Shown one piece after another: positions 773-37,413 of a stretch of DNA of 38,159 bases. Both the position numbers and the translations under genes were made by a program. Each line of letters begins with the position of its first letter. Within the stretch, counting starts at the first letter, position 1. The notes under the pieces were generated by a model. That model worked only from the letters and a program-made list of their open reading frames with translations. It was not told the DNA's origin and made no database searches. Source of the stretch: a virus; the IMG/VR virus record IMGVR_UViG_3300033388_006548, positions 1-38,159 of that record, one strand, 5' to 3'.

Positions 773-2356
773 ATGCCAATAATTGAAATACCACAAGGAG
801 ATGAAGACGATATTTACAATTTGGGATTTGACAGATGGCTACAAAGGGGAATAGCCAAAATTGGGACAGATGACAACCCTGTGGTTTATGATAGTTTTGA
901 TAATGTTGTTCCTATCTCAATAAGTAGTGGGCCTATACAGGGAAATCTTGTTTTAGACCAAGGCGATTTGAAATCAGCCAACTATATATCTGGTGGGACT
1001 GGTTGGATAATTGAATCTGTGGGTTCTGTGGAGTTTGCTTCTGGGGTATTTAGGGGAGATTTACAAATAGGTTCGGGTAATGATATTATTTTAGCAGACC
1101 CTGACCACGGAACTTGGCGTTTGGGAATTGGAGACGCTGATATAGCAAATGCTCCTTTTAGGGTAGATAAAAATGGAAACCTATTTACTGTTGGGGCTAA
1201 CATATTAGAGCAATTTACAGCAGGAGAAAGCATTTCGGCTGGTGATATAGTTTGTGTTAAAAATAGCACAATAAAGGCAAGTGTTAATGCTGATGCCTAT
1301 ACTTATCAGGATGTAAATGACAATTATGGCACAGCAACGCTTCTACATTGCGGACAAGATGCTGGTGGAAGTTTATTTTATACTTATATGGATATTGACT
1401 TAAGTAGTGTGCCAACTAACTTCCAAAAAGCAGAGTTATATTTCAGAGTTTATGACAAATTCGGGGCTAATACTCAAAGTTTAACTGCTTATAGAGTTAC
1501 TAATACTTGGGATGAAAGCACTATTACTTGGGCAACTCAGCCCGCAAGAGCAACTACAACTGGCCCAGGAGACAGGGGTGCTGCTGGAGCAAATATATCA
1601 GGAGCAACAGATGTTTGGATAGATTTAACCCAAATGGTAAAACAGTGGGTAAGTGGGGTTACAAGTAGTTTTGGGATAAGAATTGAAAGTACTGGTGGTG
1701 GTGCTGGAGATTATTGTAGAATTATATCAAAAGAACACGCTACTTCTTCTCTACATCCTTATCTTTTAGTAACTACTTATGATACTTCAAATGAGAAAAT
1801 CTATAAAGCAGGGACAGACGAATATGAATTATGTCGTGGTGTAATGGGTATTGCTACCGAGGCAGCTACTGATGGTTCTACTTGTATAGTTCAAACATCT
1901 GGTAAAAACTCTGATATAGCATTAGGAAGCGGGCAAGCGGGAGCTAAAATATATTTAGCAGATTCAACAAGTGCTCCTAATTATACTACCGCTACCACAA
2001 ACCTTTCAAGAATATACCAAATCGGAATTGGAACTACCGACAATAATATTTTAATTAAGGAAGATAATGCTAATCTCTTTATTGAAAGCCACGGAAAATA
2101 CAGAATTACAGCAGGAGACCAATATACTATGACACCACCAGATGCTACCTATGCTATGATTAGATGGGATATGTATAATAGTAGTCTTCGAGGAATAGCC
2201 AGAGTGGATATAGTAGGAAATACTACTGTTTGGGAAGAGAGAGATGTTAATGGGGCAATTAAAAGGTTTAAATTGGCGTGGGATACAGCCAATAATAGAC
2301 TAAATGTCCATTATGACAATGCACCAGTAGATTACTGGGTATATTTCTACAAATAA
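773..2356 (+). CDS. Tail fibre/appendage protein with DNRLRE-type carbohydrate-binding domain
   Basis: 527 residues. Residues about 174-337 match the DNRLRE/disaggregatase-like beta-sandwich pattern: an opening NYG, then DIDLSSVP, AELYFRVYD, a YRVTNTWDESTITWATQP block, and a closing HPYLLVTTYD. Before it, residues 95-145 (APFRVDKNGNLF) look like a typical fibre stalk. After it, residues about 345-430 resemble the small beta-barrel found in DUF2190-like virion proteins. DNRLRE domains occur in surface-glycan-binding proteins, so host recognition is the likely job. Starts with ATG four bases after the previous stop; the next gene begins 2 nt after its stop. Confidence 0.75.
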   Translation: MPIIEIPQGDEDDIYNLGFDRWLQRGIAKIGTDDNPVVYDSFDNVVPISISSGPIQGNLVLDQGDLKSANYISGGTGWIIESVGSVEFASGVFRGDLQIGSGNDIILADPDHGTWRLGIGDADIANAPFRVDKNGNLFTVGANILEQFTAGESISAGDIVCVKNSTIKASVNADAYTYQDVNDNYGTATLLHCGQDAGGSLFYTYMDIDLSSVPTNFQKAELYFRVYDKFGANTQSLTAYRVTNTWDESTITWATQPARATTTGPGDRGAAGANISGATDVWIDLTQMVKQWVSGVTSSFGIRIESTGGGAGDYCRIISKEHATSSLHPYLLVTTYDTSNEKIYKAGTDEYELCRGVMGIATEAATDGSTCIVQTSGKNSDIALGSGQAGAKIYLADSTSAPNYTTATTNLSRIYQIGIGTTDNNILIKEDNANLFIESHGKYRITAGDQYTMTPPDATYAMIRWDMYNSSLRGIARVDIVGNTTVWEERDVNGAIKRFKLAWDTANNRLNVHYDNAPVDYWVYFYK

Positions 2357-2358
2357 TT

Positions 2359-3366
2359 ATGGCAAACTTTAATCCAAGTGAATACGCCAGAGAAAAAGGT
2401 TATACCAAATACTTCCAAAAGGGAGGTCAGTGGTATGCTAATTTTAATGGTCGCTGGGTAAAAACAAAGAGTAAAGAAGAGGCAAGACAAATGTCTGGTG
2501 TTGCTTTTGGGGTAGAGACAGCAGATTTAAGAACACAAGCAATAGAATACCTTAAAAGTTTAGGGTATTCTGAGCCAGATGAAAGTGAAATCCAAGCCGC
2601 AATGAAAGAAATATCAGAAGGAAAAGCGGTAACTCCACCAACTTCACCAACTACACCACCCCCAGTAGTTCCTGATGAAACCACTTCTACTGGTAATGAA
2701 ATACTAGACCAAACCTTACAAATATTAACACAATACTTGGACAAATTAGACCAGCGAGGGCAAATGATAAATCCAGCAGTTGAAGTAACCCCAGAACAAA
2801 TGGCTGACTTTTTAGCCCAAGCCCAAAGTGAAATTGACCCTTATTATTCTGGGCAGTTAAAATTAGCCAGAGAAAATCTTTTATTTAGTGCTGGTTATAC
2901 TAAGGATGAAGTTTTAAAAGCAGAGGCAGAATTAGAAAGGAAATATGGAATAGGCGTAAGACAATTAGGAGAACGAGCCGCAGAAACAGGATTTTTATAT
3001 GGTGGCAGAAGAAGATTGGCAGAAAGAGAATTAGCAGAGGAAACCCAAGCAGATATAGAAAGGACAAGAAGGGCTTTAGGATATGAAACAGGAGTAGCAG
3101 CAAGAGAGTTTGCTAGAAGATGGGGGACAGAAGAGTTGCCTACTTTAGAAATTGGGGCTATGCCAAGAGCAATGGCTGGTAGACGAAAGTTTGGAGTGGG
3201 AGCAGAAACTACACCATTATTCCAATTAAGACCTGACATTTATCAGGGGCTTATAGGCGAGCAGGAATTTGCCAGAAAAACAGCAGTCAGACAGAGACAA
3301 GCAGAATTAGAAGAAGCTTGGCGGACTAAAGAAGAGGCAAAAAAATTAAGAGAGATTACCCTTTAA
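2359..3366 (+). CDS. Hypothetical virion-associated protein
   Basis: 335 residues, not recognised. The N-terminal 50 residues are aromatic and basic (YFQKGGQWYANFNGRWV). A Pro/Thr linker at about 92-112 (TPPTSPTTPPPVVP) separates this from a long charged helical region rich in Arg, Glu and Ala (for example GGRRRLAERELAEE). The modular layout and position between the fibre gene and a large internal-virion-like protein suggest a minor structural or ejected protein. Starts ATG 2 nt after the fibre stop, with an A/T-rich leader and no Shine-Dalgarno. Confidence 0.6.
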   Translation: MANFNPSEYAREKGYTKYFQKGGQWYANFNGRWVKTKSKEEARQMSGVAFGVETADLRTQAIEYLKSLGYSEPDESEIQAAMKEISEGKAVTPPTSPTTPPPVVPDETTSTGNEILDQTLQILTQYLDKLDQRGQMINPAVEVTPEQMADFLAQAQSEIDPYYSGQLKLARENLLFSAGYTKDEVLKAEAELERKYGIGVRQLGERAAETGFLYGGRRRLAERELAEETQADIERTRRALGYETGVAAREFARRWGTEELPTLEIGAMPRAMAGRRKFGVGAETTPLFQLRPDIYQGLIGEQEFARKTAVRQRQAELEEAWRTKEEAKKLREITL

Positions 3367-3381
3367 ATAATAATTAAAATT

Positions 3382-4467
3382 ATGGCAGAAACAACTAAAT
3401 CACATAGGACATTAGCAGGAATAGCCGATGAACAATTAGCGGGTCAGCAAGCACTTGAAAGTGCCTCAGAATTACTGGGAGAAACAACCAGTAGATTAGA
3501 GCCCGTTCAGAGGTTTAATTTAGCTTTAATGAACCTAATAAAAAGAGCACAGGGTATGGGAACTGGGGCTTTTCAAAGGCGGGGTTTTGAATTAGAAGAA
3601 AGACAGGCAGAAAGAGTTTTAAAACAAGCAGAACCTGGATTTACACCAACCCAACAAGCAGCGATTAGGGGTGCTGAAGCAGGAGCATTAAGACCCTCAA
3701 TTTTGGGGGCAGAAAGAGGAGCACAGACATTTGCTGAGCAGTTGAGAGGGTTTGGGACGGCTATGGATAGGGCTCAAGCAATTGGAACTATGCTTTACAA
3801 TGTGGAACAACAAAAATATGAAAAAGAACAGCAAGAAAAAAAGCAATGGTTTGATGTTTTGTCTGAAATATCTACAGATGAATGGAATGCGATGGATGAC
3901 AAAACCCAAAGTATGTTTTCTAAACATCTTGGTATTTCTAAAGATATAATTGGGATGATAACCCAAGAAAAAGAACCAACCAAATATACTCCACCTGAGG
4001 CATATAAGCTTTGGGAACTGTCTGGCGGACAAGTGGGAACTGGAATGGACTTTAATACTTGGTATCAACAGATATACAGGGAGGGTGGAGAAACTAAGTC
4101 ATTAACTTCTACAGAAATCAAACAATATCAAACTGATTATCCCGATGCTGGAATTACTATGGGAGATACAAAGGCAGATGCCGATGAAAAGATATATTTA
4201 GTTTATGAGTTATCTGAAGAAATACAAAATCTTAAAAATCAAGGAAAAACCAAAGAAGAAGTAGAGCAACTCTGGAAAGAAGTAAATGAGACAGATATAA
4301 TTCCCACAGAAATTCAAGCTATGATTGATAAAGCATTTGAAAAACCCTTATGGGAGAAAATTTTAGAATGGGGAGGTAAAAGAACAACAACCACAACCAC
4401 GCCATCAACCATACCTTCTACCCAAAAAGAACCTTGGAAAGAATGGACTAAATTCTTTAGTGAATAA
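3382..4467 (+). CDS. Hypothetical helical virion-associated protein
   Basis: 361 residues, not recognised. It is mostly helical: an Arg/Glu/Gln-rich N-terminal half (RGFELEERQAERVLKQAEPG), a run of charged helix around residues 150-165 (KYEKEQQEKKQW), and a Thr-rich low-complexity stretch near the C terminus (TTTTTTPSTIPST) ending in a short amphipathic tail. Composition resembles the preceding gene. Both sit between tail and large internal protein genes, so ejection or internal core protein is a reasonable but unproven guess. Confidence 0.6.
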   Translation: MAETTKSHRTLAGIADEQLAGQQALESASELLGETTSRLEPVQRFNLALMNLIKRAQGMGTGAFQRRGFELEERQAERVLKQAEPGFTPTQQAAIRGAEAGALRPSILGAERGAQTFAEQLRGFGTAMDRAQAIGTMLYNVEQQKYEKEQQEKKQWFDVLSEISTDEWNAMDDKTQSMFSKHLGISKDIIGMITQEKEPTKYTPPEAYKLWELSGGQVGTGMDFNTWYQQIYREGGETKSLTSTEIKQYQTDYPDAGITMGDTKADADEKIYLVYELSEEIQNLKNQGKTKEEVEQLWKEVNETDIIPTEIQAMIDKAFEKPLWEKILEWGGKRTTTTTTPSTIPSTQKEPWKEWTKFFSE

Positions 4468-4469
4468 AT

Positions 4470-6860
4470 ATGGCAAACTTACAAATGCCCTCTTCTTTAC
4501 AGCATAAGTTTGTTTTATTAGAACAACTAAGACAACAGACAGCCCAGCAAAAAGAAGAGAAACAACCCAAAGCAGAGAGTTTTTGGAAAAGTACGGGGCA
4601 ATCTATTGCTCGTTCTTTTCTTGCAACTGGCTCACAAATATATAAAACATTATTCGTTCCAAAAGAAGAAAGAAAACCATTTGGTGAGGCATCCTATACA
4701 CCAGTAGAAGATTGGGAAAAGAAAATATTTGGAACAGATAAGCCAGTTAGTTTCAAAAGTATTGGAGAAGAAATGTTATTAGTGGGTGGTGATGACTTCA
4801 AGAAAAAATGGGGCTCATACTCTATTCCTTTAGGCATGGTTATTGCTGGTTTAGATATAACCCCTATTGGTGGTGGGGGGAAAAGTAGTGTGGTGAAACA
4901 AGGAGTAAAGAAAATTGCCAAAACCAAGAGTATTCCTACTATATTGAAAACCTTAAAGACAATAGTTAAGGGTTCAGACGATGAACTTAAGTTTTTAGCT
5001 AAGTCATTAAAGAATATTACAAATGAAAAAGATGTTGTTAAATTAATTACTTCTACTGGAAAGAAATTAAAAGCTATAAAACCAGCAGTAAAAGTAGCCA
5101 CAAAATTAAAAACACCCACTACAAAAGTGGTTACTCCTATTACTAAGAAAGCAGTTAGACAAATTCCTGCAGCCACCGATACAACCGTTGCTGGATTTAA
5201 AGGAACAGTTGCTAAGGTTAATGAAATGTTGAAAACTGCCAAGGTAGATTTGAAAAAAGTTAAAGCACTACAAAGAACAGAAAGGGCTAAAAGGTTTGCT
5301 AAAGTAGAAAACTTTATTACTAAACAAATTGATAATGTTGGTGGAGAAGAGGGATATAGAAAAGTTCTTTCTATGTTAAAAGGAGAACTTATTCCGTCAG
5401 AGGAAAGGGCATTACTTGCTCCACTTAAAAATAGACTAAACGCAACTGAAATGAAAACCCTGTTTCAGGGTGTCTGGAAACACCCATATTTAACTACTGG
5501 AGAAAAAACAAGTACTGCTAAGGGTTTAATGCAATTATTGACAGGAGAGCTACCTCAACCCCATCAGCTTACCTTAATGGAAGAAGTTTTTGGAACAGAT
5601 TTTATTAAAACTATTCTGTCTAAGAGAATATGGGGAGCAAAAGCAATGGATGTATTTATAGAAACAATGAATGTTCCAAGGGTGGCATTGGCTACTGCCG
5701 ATATGAGTGCTTTTTTAAGACAAGGGATTATTGAACTTATTGCACATCCTGTTATTGGAACAAAGGCTATAGCAAGAACTTTTAGGTTTGCTGTAAGTCC
5801 CGATGACTTTGTTAGGTATTTTGATGATTTGGTAAAAGACCCACTTTTCAAACTAATGAGAAAAAGTGGTGTAGCAATAACTAATCCAAGCAAGGTGGCG
5901 GGTGGATTAGGTGCACGAGAAGAAGCGTTTATATCAAGATTTCTTCAAAAAATTCCTATAGTTAATATTCCTACTACTTTTGCCGAAAGGTCTTATACTG
6001 GCTTTTTAACTAAGATGAGAGTAGATATTTTTAAATGTTGGGCTGATGAATTATTAACAAAGGGATATAGCCCAGTAAAAGATGCTGACCTTTTTAAGGC
6101 AGCAGCAGAGGTAGTTAATACTTTTACGGGAAGGGGTAGCCTGGGAGCATTAAACAAAATAGCTCCAGAAATGAGTATAGCCTTCTTCTCACCAAGATTA
6201 ATTGCTGCAAGATTTAATGCAATGAACCCAATTTGGTATGCCAGATTACCAGCTCCAATTAGACAAAAGGCAATTATGGATTTTGCTAAATTTGTAGGAG
6301 TAGGAATAACAACCCTGGGAATGATAAAGATGTACAAAGAAGCTAATAATATTCCAGATAGAGAATTAAGCTTAGAAACCAATCCAATTAGTGCTGATTT
6401 CGGAAAAATAAAAATAGGCAATACTCGTTTTGATATATGGGGAGGTTTTCAGCAGTGGGTAAGAGTCATTGCTCAAATTGCTACTGGAGAAAGAAAAAAC
6501 ACCACTACGGGTGAAATTGTCTCCTTAACTAAAGATGAATATCCTTTTACCACGAGAAAGGAAGTATTACTAAGATTTATTGAGGGAAAGATGGCTCCAG
6601 TTCCAGCACTTGTAAATGAATTGATGGCGGGTGGAAAAACATTTACTGGAGAGGATATGACACTTGCTTCGGTATTAAGAGAAAAATTTATTCCAATGTA
6701 TATTCAAGATATAATGGAGGCTTATGCTGATGGGGGAATGGGCAAGGCAGTGGGAGCTGGCGGAGCAGCGTTCTTTGGAATTGGAGTTCAAACTTATCCA
6801 ATTAAAAAAGGAAGGACATCAACAAGAGGAGGTTCTCTTAAAATGCCTTCTAAAAGATAA
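4470..6860 (+). CDS. Large internal virion / polyvalent-type protein
   Basis: 796 residues, starting 2 nt after the previous stop. The first 300 residues are Lys/Thr-rich and helical. The central and C-terminal part is hydrophobic-helical and better structured, with stretches such as MSIAFFSPRLIAARFNAMNP and a Gly-rich tail region (GGMGKAVGAGGAAFFGIG). The size, late position after the fibre and similar C-terminal patches in large polyvalent or ejection proteins suggest an internal virion protein delivered with DNA. No catalytic motif is obvious. Followed by a 180-nt gap with a possible minus-strand gene. Confidence 0.55.
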   Translation: MANLQMPSSLQHKFVLLEQLRQQTAQQKEEKQPKAESFWKSTGQSIARSFLATGSQIYKTLFVPKEERKPFGEASYTPVEDWEKKIFGTDKPVSFKSIGEEMLLVGGDDFKKKWGSYSIPLGMVIAGLDITPIGGGGKSSVVKQGVKKIAKTKSIPTILKTLKTIVKGSDDELKFLAKSLKNITNEKDVVKLITSTGKKLKAIKPAVKVATKLKTPTTKVVTPITKKAVRQIPAATDTTVAGFKGTVAKVNEMLKTAKVDLKKVKALQRTERAKRFAKVENFITKQIDNVGGEEGYRKVLSMLKGELIPSEERALLAPLKNRLNATEMKTLFQGVWKHPYLTTGEKTSTAKGLMQLLTGELPQPHQLTLMEEVFGTDFIKTILSKRIWGAKAMDVFIETMNVPRVALATADMSAFLRQGIIELIAHPVIGTKAIARTFRFAVSPDDFVRYFDDLVKDPLFKLMRKSGVAITNPSKVAGGLGAREEAFISRFLQKIPIVNIPTTFAERSYTGFLTKMRVDIFKCWADELLTKGYSPVKDADLFKAAAEVVNTFTGRGSLGALNKIAPEMSIAFFSPRLIAARFNAMNPIWYARLPAPIRQKAIMDFAKFVGVGITTLGMIKMYKEANNIPDRELSLETNPISADFGKIKIGNTRFDIWGGFQQWVRVIAQIATGERKNTTTGEIVSLTKDEYPFTTRKEVLLRFIEGKMAPVPALVNELMAGGKTFTGEDMTLASVLREKFIPMYIQDIMEAYADGGMGKAVGAGGAAFFGIGVQTYPIKKGRTSTRGGSLKMPSKR

Positions 6861-24904: not shown

Positions 24905-25492
24905 ATGCCAAAAGGAATCAAGGGTTTTCAAAAGGGTCAAAAACCATATCAAATGACCGAAGAAACAAGAAAAAAAATGAGTGAGGTTCGGATAGGTAAA
25001 AAACATTCCGAGGAAACTAAAAGAAAAATGAGCGAAACACGAAAAAGGATTGGGTATGGCAAGTGGAATAAAGGACACAGGCATACAGAAGAAACCAAAA
25101 GAAAAATATCTCAAGCCCTTAAGGGGAGACCAACAAAATATCACGGAAAAGGATTTCAAAAAGGACATCCCGATTTAGTTCCGAAAGAAAGTAGAAAAAG
25201 ACAGGGGCTAAAAATAAAAGGTGAAAAAAATTATTTATGGCGAGGGGGCAAATCTTTTGAGAAATATGGCATAGAATGGACACAAACATTAAAAAGAAGC
25301 ATCAGAGAACGAGACCATTACACTTGTCAATTGTGTGGTAAATTACAAGGCGATACTGCTTTTATTGTTCACCACATTGACCAAAATAAACGAAACAATA
25401 ACCCAAACAACCTTGTAACCCTTTGCCGAAGTTGTCACATGGAAATTCATCAAAGAGATTATCGGGAAATAATTAAGAAATTAGAAAGTTAA
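24905..25492 (+). CDS. NUMOD3-HNH homing endonuclease
   Basis: 195 residues. N-terminal repeats of the NUMOD3 DNA-binding motif: ETRKKMSEVRIGKKHSEETK, ETRKRIGYGK and EETKRKISQALKGRPTK. The C-terminal HNH module has RSIRERDHYTCQLCGKLQGD, then IVHHIDQNKRNNNPNNLVTL and CRSCHMEIHQ. It is a paralogue of the gene at 32127. Free-standing, not inside an intron that I can see. Likely mobile between phages. Confidence 0.9.
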   Translation: MPKGIKGFQKGQKPYQMTEETRKKMSEVRIGKKHSEETKRKMSETRKRIGYGKWNKGHRHTEETKRKISQALKGRPTKYHGKGFQKGHPDLVPKESRKRQGLKIKGEKNYLWRGGKSFEKYGIEWTQTLKRSIRERDHYTCQLCGKLQGDTAFIVHHIDQNKRNNNPNNLVTLCRSCHMEIHQRDYREIIKKLES

Positions 25493-31919: not shown

Positions 31920-32130
31920 GGATAAGCAAAAATCCCTTTTAAGAAAGTTTTATGAGTCAGATGAGTGGAAACTTATAGAACAAATTGCTAACGAACTGAT
32001 TTCAGAGATTAGTTTAGATTCTTCTATAGGGGAAAGCGTGGACGAAACCGTTAAGAAAACCTATGAGAAAGAGGGTAAAATTCAAGGTATAAGAGATTTA
32101 TTACAAAGAATTTTTAATAAAACACAATGA
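31912..32130 (+). CDS. Helical hypothetical protein
   Basis: 72 residues from the ATG at 31912 (ATGTTTGA overlap). Helical: FEDKQKSLLRKFYESDEWKL and ANELISEISLDSSIGESVDE. Ends with an ATGA overlap with the HNH nuclease. Function unknown. Confidence 0.5.
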   Translation: MFEDKQKSLLRKFYESDEWKLIEQIANELISEISLDSSIGESVDETVKKTYEKEGKIQGIRDLLQRIFNKTQ

Positions 32131-32669
32131 GGGGAAGTTATTTAAAGACAGAAGAACATAGAATAAAAATAAGAAATGCTTTATTAGGGAAACCACTTTC
32201 AAAAGAACGAAGAGAAAAAATTAGCAAATCTCATCTTGGAAAGAAATTAACCGAACAACATAAAAAGAATATTAGTAAAGCACTAAAGGGGAGAATGCCC
32301 AAAAATTTAGCACTTCTTCATTCTCCAGAGATGCAACGAAAAGCCACTGAAGCATTTCGTGGTTGTACGGTTAGAGAAAAACACTGGAACTGGAAAGGAG
32401 GATATGTACGACCCCCCTATACAATAGATTGGACAAAAACCTTAAGGCGAAGCATTAGAGAAAGAGATAATTATACTTGTCAGATATGTAATAAAACTCA
32501 GGGCGATATTACTTATTGTATTCATCACATTGACTACAATCCTAAAAATTGTAGTCCAACAAACTTAATAACATTGTGTCGTAGTTGTCATCAAAAAACA
32601 AACTTTAATAGAAGTTATTGGCAAAACTATTTACAAAATATAATTCAAAAATATGATTACAGAATATGA
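32127..32669 (+). CDS. NUMOD3-HNH homing endonuclease
   Basis: 180 residues, paralogue of the 24905 gene. NUMOD3 repeats: RIKIRNALLGKPLSKERREK, KISKSHLGKKLTEQHKKNIS and KALKGRMPKN. HNH module: RSIRERDNYTCQICNKTQGD, then CIHHIDYNPKNCSPTNLITL and CRSCHQK. It sits between head genes in the same frame order, with an ATGA overlap, so insertion did not break a neighbour. Confidence 0.9.
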   Translation: MRGSYLKTEEHRIKIRNALLGKPLSKERREKISKSHLGKKLTEQHKKNISKALKGRMPKNLALLHSPEMQRKATEAFRGCTVREKHWNWKGGYVRPPYTIDWTKTLRRSIRERDNYTCQICNKTQGDITYCIHHIDYNPKNCSPTNLITLCRSCHQKTNFNRSYWQNYLQNIIQKYDYRI

Positions 32670-35351: not shown

Positions 35352-35888
35352 ATGCCTAATCCATTACAAATAGCGGATGCTGTAGATTTAGTTGACGCTT
35401 CTATCCAGCAAATCTGGCTAAAAGACGGTGCGGTGAAAGATACTTATTACGATAAGTATATGAACACCGAGACTGGGGTCACTGACTACTACCTAAAAGA
35501 CAGTTCACTAGGAGGACTTGGTTATGCCTCTAGGGTAACCGAGAACGCTGTCATTCAGAGCCAAAGTCCTATTCAGGGTTTTGACCAAGTCTATACTCAG
35601 CATGAGTATGGAAAGGTTTTACCTATAACGAAAAGGATGTGGTTCTTTGGGATTAAGAAAAGAAATCTTGAACAAGTTGTCCAGCAATTAAGAGATGCTT
35701 GTGCCCACGAAAGGGAGAAGCTCTGTGCTGAATTACTTGAAAATGGATTTATAACCTCTTATACCCATTCAGATGATGGCGGAAACTACACTATTAACAC
35801 TACTGGCGGAGATGCCAAGAGTTTGTTCTCTTCTTCTCATACAAGGGAAGATGCGGGGACAAATAACAATAATGTAGTTTATGACGGT
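35352..35888 (+). CDS. Major capsid protein, exon 1 (residues 1-179)
   Basis: HK97-fold capsid, N-terminal part: an N-terminal arm, then DYYLKDSSLGGLGYASRVTE, YTQHEYGKVLPITKRMWFFG and LFSSSHTREDAGTNNNNVVY. The unspliced frame runs into the intron and stops at 36053. The exon ends at T35888: GACGGT (35883-35888) pairs with GCCGTC (35907-35912), giving the U-G pair of a group I 5' splice site. Phase 0. The protein continues with the 6-codon micro-exon (36067) and exon 3 (36793), 331 residues in all. Confidence 0.88.
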
Positions 35889-36066
35889 ATAAATTGTAAG
35901 TGTAGTGCCGTCAAAAAATCATCTCTAATTAATGGGGAAAACCTAAAGCGAAAAGCTATGGCAACCCTCAGGAAGGCGATGAGCCACCTGCAGAGACTGA
36001 ACGAGATGACCCTATTTAGGGAAGCGACAGTCCCATCTTATATGAAAATATAAGTTAAGATTCAAG
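35889..36066 (+). ncRNA. Group I intron 1 (178 nt, no ORF)
   Basis: P1: exon GACGGT with GCCGTC. P10: GTAGT (35902-35906) with exon ACTAC (36067-36071). P3: TCATCTC (35919) with GAGATGA (36003). P7: GACTG (35995) with CAGTC (36028). P8: CCCTA/TAGGG (36010-36021). P9: CTTATAT-GAAA-ATATAAG (36037-36054). P5 and P6 hairpins lie between P3 and P7 (GAAA-type loop near 35950; CAGG/CCTG near 35970-35990). It ends in G36066, as required. Unusually compact. Confidence 0.88.
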
Positions 36067-36084
36067 ACTACTTACAACATGGAT
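36067..36084 (+). other. Major capsid protein micro-exon (18 nt, 6 residues)
   Basis: ACTACTTACAACATGGAT encodes TTYNMD in frame. Its first five bases pair in P10 of intron 1 and its last six (ATGGAT) form P1 of intron 2. The ends of both introns are thus defined independently. Splicing joins DG-TTYNMD-FDYDALK without a frame break. Confidence 0.8.
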
Positions 36085-36792
36085 TTTCAATTAAAGTTCA
36101 TTTAAAATCTCTTCTGAATAACTGGAAAGCCTACGGGTATCATACCGTAATAGAATGACCATTTTTTCGTCATATATATAAAAGGTCAACAATATCACAA
36201 TATGATACTTATGGTAACCAGAGGCAAGCATAATTTTAATTTAGATTATCTCGCTGGCTTCTTTGATGGAGAGGGTAGCATCTTTATCACAAAGATGTTT
36301 AATAAGCGTTCTGGAAATTACTGGTATAGATTATGTGTTAGTTGTGGAAATAGTATTCAAGAACCCATTGAAGAATTACACAGAATATTTAGTCTTACAA
36401 GAAAGAATTTTCTTTATATACCTGGTAGGAAAAAAGAATATAAACCCTCTTATCAGTGGTTGGCTACTGGCAATGTAGCAAAAAGATTTTTGGAAATTAT
36501 GGAATCTAGGTTGATAGTTAAACAAAGACAAGCAAAATTAGGAATTGAATTTCAAGAGTGGCGGAACTCTCTACCCAATACTGGGAAAAGAAGAACTCCT
36601 GATATTCTCCAAAAATGTGAAGAATATTAGCAGAAAATGAGAAATCTAAATAAATATTATTCGCAGCCGCAGAGACTAAGCGAAGAGACACCTAAATAAG
36701 GTGAAGCGATAGTCCGAACTCTGTGGGAAACCACGAGAGGTATTCTAGAAATAGATACCCCGTATTTTTGTTTAATACGAGTAACATAATTG
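36085..36792 (+). ncRNA. Group I intron 2 (708 nt, with LAGLIDADG ORF)
   Basis: P1: exon ATGGAT (36079-36084) with GTTCAT (36096-36101), U84-G96 wobble at the splice site. P10: ATTAAA (36090-36095) with exon TTTGAT (36793). P3: TCTCTTC (36108) with GAAGAGA (36682). P7: GACTA (36674) with TAGTC (36710). P8: CACCT/AGGTG (36689-36703). P9 extensions form GAAA-capped and other hairpins to 36780. The ORF at 36202-36630 lies between the P4/P5 side and the P7 side. Last base G36792. Confidence 0.85.
36202..36630 (+). CDS. LAGLIDADG homing endonuclease in intron 2
   Basis: 142 residues. One motif, LAGFFDGEG (residues about 17-25), so it would work as a homodimer. Typical following parts: SIFITK beta strand, RLCVSCGN, the FLEIMESRLIVKQRQAKLG helix. 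It is in plus orientation inside the intron and is preceded by AAAGGTC (36182). It probably spreads the intron among capsid genes. Confidence 0.9.
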   Translation: MILMVTRGKHNFNLDYLAGFFDGEGSIFITKMFNKRSGNYWYRLCVSCGNSIQEPIEELHRIFSLTRKNFLYIPGRKKEYKPSYQWLATGNVAKRFLEIMESRLIVKQRQAKLGIEFQEWRNSLPNTGKRRTPDILQKCEEY

Positions 36793-37233
36793 TTTGATTA
36801 TGATGCACTTAAAGCCGCTCACAGAACGGCAAGGCTCATAAAAAGTCCAAGAGGTAAACCAATGGATATTCTGTTAGACACTCTTGTAGTCGCCAGGGGA
36901 ACAACTAACCATCACAGGGCAATTGAAATGCTGGGTTCATTCAAAAAAGGATGGCAACCAGCAACTGCCGACCGTGAAGGAGCTGGTGTTCCTGACTATA
37001 AGATTATCGCCCTACCATGGATTTTGACCAATACTGACTTTTGGTTTATGTTTGATTCTAAATACAAGAATCCCACTTATGGGCTTCAGTATAAAGAATC
37101 TCAACCAATTAAGTTAGAGGGTCCGAATGTTGTGTTTAAAACGAATGAACTCCAATATAAATCAACATTTATGGCGGATATTGGACACAATGATTATCGT
37201 GGTTGGGTTGGTAGTACTAACTTGAATGTCTAA
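36793..37233 (+). CDS. Major capsid protein, exon 3 (146 residues)
   Basis: The exon starts TTTGATTATG directly after intron 2's terminal G. A stop (TAA) lies 3 nt upstream of the TTG at 36790, so the exon cannot be read upstream without splicing. It encodes the C-terminal P-domain/spine: FDYDALKAAHRTARLIKSPR, MDILLDTLVVARGTTNH, and ends IGHNDYRGWVGSTNLNV. This completes an HK97-type shell protein. Confidence 0.9.
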   Translation, partial: FDYDALKAAHRTARLIKSPRGKPMDILLDTLVVARGTTNHHRAIEMLGSFKKGWQPATADREGAGVPDYKIIALPWILTNTDFWFMFDSKYKNPTYGLQYKESQPIKLEGPNVVFKTNELQYKSTFMADIGHNDYRGWVGSTNLNV

Positions 37234-37314
37234 TCCTAGACAGAACTCTAAATCTTAGCACTAAAATCAAACAAGAGCACTTCAAGTATTCTTTTCTTGT
37301 GGAATGCGAACCGA

Positions 37315-37399
37315 GACGAGTAGCCAGGTTGCCTGACGGTCGTAAGGTCTATATTGGAGAGCCTGTACTCGTCTCCTCTTAAGAGGAAAAAGTCTCCAA
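37315..37399 (+). ncRNA. Interleaved RNA element after the capsid gene
   Basis: GACGAGTA (37315-37322) pairs with TACTCGTC (37366-37373). TTGGAGA (37354-37360) pairs with TCTCCAA (37393-37399). The helices interleave. A CCTCTTAAGAGG hairpin (37375-37386) lies in the last loop. It ends 15 nt before the next ATG at 37414. Might be a pseudoknot or two alternative folds that set the level of capsid versus downstream protein. Confidence 0.65.
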
Positions 37400-37413
37400 A
37401 ATAATAAACTAAT

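Follow-up and report, generated by a model that had tools for sequence, protein, structure and literature searches.

A viral major capsid protein gene (positions 35352–37233, plus strand) appears to be divided into three coding pieces of 179, 6 and 146 residues by two independent group I introns that lie only 18 nt apart and that would be spliced out to yield a 331-residue HK97-fold protein, a reading to which we give a probability of roughly 0.93. The gene lies in the 38,159-nt stretch of DNA studied here (positions 1–38,159 of IMG/VR record IMGVR_UViG_3300033388_006548; hereafter, the window), to which coordinates refer unless another locus is named. All features of the gene described below are on the plus strand.

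When joined, exon 1 (35352–35888; residues 1–179), the 18-nt micro-exon (36067–36084; residues 180–185, TTYNMD) and exon 3 (36793–37233; residues 186–331 and the stop codon) give 331 uninterrupted codons followed by a stop, so that the continuous 179 + 6 + 146 frame put forward in an earlier note on this DNA is indeed open over its full length. Exon 1 shares 51–65% identity (best segment) with the capsid genes of other viruses, and exon 3 shares 50–55% identity with its relatives and is colinear with them in intron-free genes. The unspliced transcript encodes at most a 233-residue chimera that ends at a stop at 36051, in keeping with that note's claim that no full capsid protein can be made without splicing. 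We considered an intein and rejected it: the frame of exon 1 continues for 54 codons into intron 1 before a stop at 36051, and the insertions have group I cores. A structural model of an intron-free relative (pLDDT 77.7) matches the capsid proteins of HK97, phage T5, P23-45 and many others (Foldseek E ~1e-8, probability 1.0), with predicted phage capsid proteins matching at lower E-values, and on the strength of this model the window gene product is an HK97-fold major capsid protein of a tailed virus. The micro-exon residues correspond in the model to the loop immediately before the helix starting at residue 188. No capsid homologue was found in the genome_contigs collection, and a distant match to the terminase occurs in two MAGs only; among named phage records, the capsid protein matches only a Methanomicrobiales virus (23% identity).

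Relatives from IMG/VR, gathered by scans with exon 1, exon 3, a profile and the endonuclease described below, fix the positions of the splice junctions. The capsid gene is found, mostly uninterrupted, on about 83 other viral contigs, represented by 102 fetched loci that overlap (several contigs were taken more than once). Of these loci, 87 contain one full, colinear, uninterrupted match over the whole protein. The intron-free relatives align without gaps across the region, including the equivalent of TTYNMD (STYSMD, TTYNMD or STVNMD), and no relative that spans this stretch lacks a counterpart of the six micro-exon residues. Because this segment is present without a gap, both insertion sites are fixed, and the junctions derived from homology can slide by only one base for intron 1 and three bases for intron 2. 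The rule that group I introns end in G then selects 35888/35889, 36066/36067, 36084/36085 and 36792/36793, exactly where the earlier note had placed the four splice sites from the sequence alone. At both insertions the preceding exon ends in a U that is paired to a guide G in P1 (a U·G pair at the junction), and the introns end in G at 36066 and 36792. The junctions derived from homology are in agreement with P1 and P10 as well as with these terminal U and G residues.

Intron 1 (35889–36066) is 178 nt long, contains no ORF and has a complete predicted core (P1, P3–P9, P10). The 5' strand of P1 (35882–35888; TGACGGT), which ends in the exon-terminal U, forms 7 bp with GCCGTCA at 35907–35913, and the directly adjoining P10 pairs GTAGT (35902–35906) with ACTAC over 5 bp; together these strands make up the internal guide (35902–35913). 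A combined P1 and P10 score this high occurs in 0.02% of shuffled intron 5' ends (p 0.0002). The 5' strand of P3 (35919–35925; TCATCTC) pairs with 36003–36009, and the region from 35995 to 36032 contains P7 (35995–35999/36028–36032), the 3' strand of P3 (36003–36009) and P8 (36010–36014/36017–36021). The fold of intron 1 is more stable than all 200 shuffled sequences (z −2.95). Among the fetched loci and the other viral contigs, an intron at codon 179 was seen in the window contig only and the same tandem arrangement was not seen in a second virus, and an exact scan of other viral contigs with the intron–exon–intron junction gave no match.

Intron 2 (36085–36792) is longer, at 708 nt, and carries a homing endonuclease gene. 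Its internal guide (36089–36101) comprises a P10 strand (36089–36095), pairing AATTAAA with TTTGATT over 7 bp, and a P1 strand (36096–36101), pairing GTTCAT with ATGGAT over 6 bp; a combined score this high is reached in 0.6% of shuffled intron 5' ends (p 0.006). The 5' strand of P3 (36108–36114; TCTCTTC) pairs with 36682–36688, and the 3' domain (36674–36714) contains P7 (36674–36678/36710–36714), the 3' strand of P3 (36682–36688) and P8 (36689–36693/36699–36703). Folded without constraints and with its ORF removed, intron 2 is more stable than most shuffled sequences (z −2.20); the resulting structure lacks the P3/P7 pseudoknot, a feature beyond the reach of such programs. The ORF (36202–36630, with a start at 36202 or 36211) matches phrog_5046 (E 7.8e-21) and, at a level short of the Pfam cut-off, Pfam LAGLIDADG_1 (E 0.001). 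The endonuclease genes of the window and of two relatives with a homologous intron (L005 and L102) are 65–78% identical, and comparison of the window gene with the other two gives dN 0.29 and dS 1.3–1.6. This ratio (dN/dS ~0.2) marks the gene as one under purifying selection. The window endonuclease ends about 30 codons before its relatives, whose ORFs extend into the ribozyme core, and its putative activity is therefore uncertain.

Covariance models identify both insertions as group I introns. Local searches with the Rfam model Intron_gpI (RF00028) match intron 1 at 35879–36054 (44.1 bits, E 1.1e-9) and intron 2 at 36593–36737 (25.8 bits, E 3.5e-4), scores that are significant by E-value though below the gathering cut-off of 50 bits, which is a curation threshold and not a defining property of group I introns. 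Rfam scans of the whole window and of the relatives gave no match. The library also misses the clear introns of L102, which argues that it is insensitive here. We therefore also used two covariance models built from the introns of other viruses only: R1, from four cores with P3, P4, P5, P6 and P8, and R2, from eight 3' domains with P7 and P8. Two homologues of intron 2 are among the sequences used to train R2, and none among those used for R1. With R1, intron 1 scores 82.5 bits (E 1.1e-16) and intron 2, in its 3' half, 39.1 bits; with R2, intron 2 scores 66.7 bits (E 7.5e-19) and intron 1 scores 43.7 bits (E 1.2e-11). Neither model has a significant match in the window beyond the two introns. 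Each sequence-based check that the earlier note listed as able to overturn its reading came out in its favour.

The P3/P7 pseudoknot is supported by covariation. Across ten introns, including the two of the window, 120 of 120 alignment cells are paired, and both sides have changed in 8 of 12 base pairs, a level that none of 500 shuffles reaches; when the partner strand is slid by 1–3 columns, only 35–51% of the cells pair. The segments for this alignment were trimmed manually about the expected helices, a choice that favours pairing but does not produce covariation. P8 covariation was left uncounted, as the automatic alignment shifts the P8 loop. Both introns have P3, P7 and P8, and the assignment of a separate P1, P10, P3, P7 and P8 to each, proposed at the outset, stands on the shuffling tests, the R1 and R2 matches and this covariation.

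The micro-exon has to serve both introns, as the earlier note had recognized, and a refinement can be added: it does so with different bases. Nucleotides 1–5 pair in P10 of intron 1 and nucleotides 13–18 in P1 of intron 2, with 7 nt free between them, so the two roles do not compete. The introns could nonetheless act jointly and often skip the exon, giving a second, shorter capsid protein (325 residues, without TTYNMD), an outcome we regard as improbable. The length of the micro-exon is a multiple of three, which would keep the frame, and two papers put on record that short exons flanked by group I introns can be skipped (PMC10136302, PMC11878797). However, the Staphylococcus phage Twort introns that skip are highly similar, and a chimeric ribozyme of the Twort type calls for sufficiently similar introns, which those of the window are not. 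Their P3 strands differ, P3 cross-pairing between the introns fails at two of seven positions and the P1/P10 cross-pairings are broken, a pattern that predicts inclusion of the micro-exon over skipping. Distinct P1/P10 elements likewise suppress skipping in engineered tandems (PMC10136302). Moreover, no relative that covers the segment lacks it, and a 31-sequence alignment shows T181 and N183 each at least 90% conserved, so a product without the segment would probably be useless. We accordingly expect the micro-exon to be included. A variant of the skipping scenario, which we rate slightly lower again, is alternative splicing of the 18-nt exon to give capsid proteins with and without its six residues, in a ratio set by ribozyme folding; if true, one virus would make two capsid proteins whose difference lies just before a helix of the HK97 fold.

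Splicing and its order, homing, hitch-hiking and the absence of skipping are what we infer from the sequence, and would proceed as follows. Each intron would fold its own ribozyme in the transcript. Guanosine would attack the bond between the exon-terminal U and the intron, held in P1; the freed 3' end of the exon would in turn attack just past the terminal G, while P10 keeps the next exon aligned. Two such rounds would join 179 + 6 + 146 codons. Intron 2 may be mobile now, or have been so recently, by means of the LAGLIDADG endonuclease that it encodes, an enzyme that would cut after codon 185 in alleles free of the intron. Lying 18 bp from the intron 2 site, the ORF-less intron 1 could be copied along with intron 2 through flank co-conversion. 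The shorter endonuclease would also suit introns that are dead, in a capsid gene copy that is a pseudogene or part of a defective genome. This is very unlikely, since each of the three exons has an open frame and is conserved, neither the core helices nor the splice-site pairings are broken and some of the pairings co-vary with relatives, and a DNA search with the gene found no second copy in the record, which is linear and may be a fragment.

Other members of the capsid gene family place the two introns of the window in a broader pattern. Ten introns occupy eight sites in seven viruses, at (in window numbering) codon 82, phase 0 (L102); codon 97, phase 1 (L057); codon 179, phase 0 (the window); codon 181, phase 2 (L093, where the contig ends inside the intron); codon 185, phase 0 (the window, L005 and L102); codon 303, phase 0 (L009); codon 306, phase 1 (L102); and codon 309, phase 0 (L003). 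The sites cluster in three conserved stretches of the protein. All of the introns follow a U and end in G wherever the 3' end is visible, and all except intron 1 of the window contain HNH or LAGLIDADG ORFs. By this census, the capsid gene of the family is one that introns have invaded recurrently. At exactly the codon-185 site, L005 and L102 have an intron that is homologous to that of the window and contains a related LAGLIDADG ORF, but neither has one at codon 179; unlike the window, L102 is also interrupted at codons 82 and 306, which brings its introns to three. As these relatives have only the codon-185 member of the pair, introns 1 and 2 were most likely gained separately and have separate histories. 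The least probable explanation is a metagenome assembly artefact that joined a foreign intron into the gene, suggested by the occurrence of intron 1 in a single contig, but two further contigs independently place intron 2 at its site and the guide of intron 1 fits both flanking capsid exons (7 bp P1, 5 bp P10), a match that a random join would not produce.

Several further loci merit description. In L093, the intron (after position 4542 of that locus) lies 8 nt downstream of the intron 1 site of the window, and its contig ends before the catalytic core. Its guide core, GCCGTC, is that of intron 1 and pairs with another GACGGT in the exon, possibly reflecting a local shift to a nearby matching hexamer. 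Locus L117 (IMGVR_UViG_3300013297_000194, contig positions 6500–14500; also L104) contains, at 1900–6600, a probable structural gene, likely a capsid gene by its position and a weak match to phrog_14242. R1 and R2 detect at least four strong group I introns within 2 kb (1939–2058, 2226–2348, near 2625–2807 and 3827–3957), and up to four more candidates lie further along, marked by P7-like motifs near 5736–5825, 6138–6228 and 6466–6522 and by a GAGTAACA terminus near 5410. The exons are short (~60–190 nt), and an opposite-strand ORF (4594–5319) lies in one of the candidate introns. The ORF-less intron at 2226–2348 is the closest relative of intron 1 that we have seen. If real, this would be an unusually intron-dense phage gene. 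In L053 and L081 (5380–6625), the gene downstream of the capsid gene has an intron region with LAGLIDADG and HNH-like ORFs and two R1/R2 matches, which may represent a tandem pair of introns or a single intron that carries two endonuclease genes.

Within the window, two HNH endonuclease ORFs with NUMOD3 motifs (24905–25492 and 32127–32669) have no intron core beside them in the R1 and R2 scans, and so look free-standing. The 180-nt spacer after the capsid gene (37234–37413) contains a long hairpin (CGAGACGAGUA.../UACUCGUCUC), and its overall fold is no better than that of shuffled sequence (z −0.99).

An arrangement of this kind has practical consequences, as gene callers applied to such viruses would list a truncated capsid gene or none at all. 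A family with intron-free, one-, two- and three-intron alleles also provides a natural test set for the spread of introns without homing endonuclease genes beside introns that bear them, and for asking what stops tandem introns from skipping the exon between them.

The introns of Twort orf142 were reportedly treated by Landthaler and Shub in 1999. This tail tube gene has three group I introns with a 23-nt exon between two of them (PMC10136302, PMC11878797); introns 2 and 3 are highly similar, and the exon between them is skipped or kept (PMC10136302). Like the window gene, orf142 combines tandem group I introns, a virion structural gene and a very short exon. Unlike it, the window has a capsid gene and an 18-nt exon, its introns are not near-copies and one carries a LAGLIDADG gene; inclusion of the exon, in preference to skipping, is expected here. 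The micro-exon is thus shorter than the 23 nt of the published phage example, and it lies in a gene whose product is needed in large amounts.

Capsid gene introns are also on record. In mycobacteriophage LittleE, the intron of the major capsid gene is removed at the RNA level, as shown by RT-PCR and N-terminal protein sequence (PMC3706429), and as in the window it contains a LAGLIDADG-like ORF. LittleE differs in having one intron, with the ORF on the opposite strand, and the likeness is drawn at the level of gene type. Tuc2009 has another capsid intron, as cited in PMC3706429. Small or skipped internal exons are known from the Bacillus phages phiNIT1, whose reductase gene has a small exon between two introns, and SIOphi, in which an internal exon is skipped (PMC11878797); these introns are in metabolic or packaging genes, and those of the window in a capsid gene. 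In the 23S rRNA of Coxiella burnetii, two group I introns surround a 34-nt exon (cited in PMC10136302), a tandem in a bacterial rRNA gene as opposed to a viral capsid gene. The earlier description of such closely spaced introns in a structural gene as rare is fair, with the qualification that precedents are published in Twort (23 nt), Coxiella (34 nt) and the capsid introns. The window gene presents a known mechanism in an unusual arrangement, with a precedent for each of its parts.
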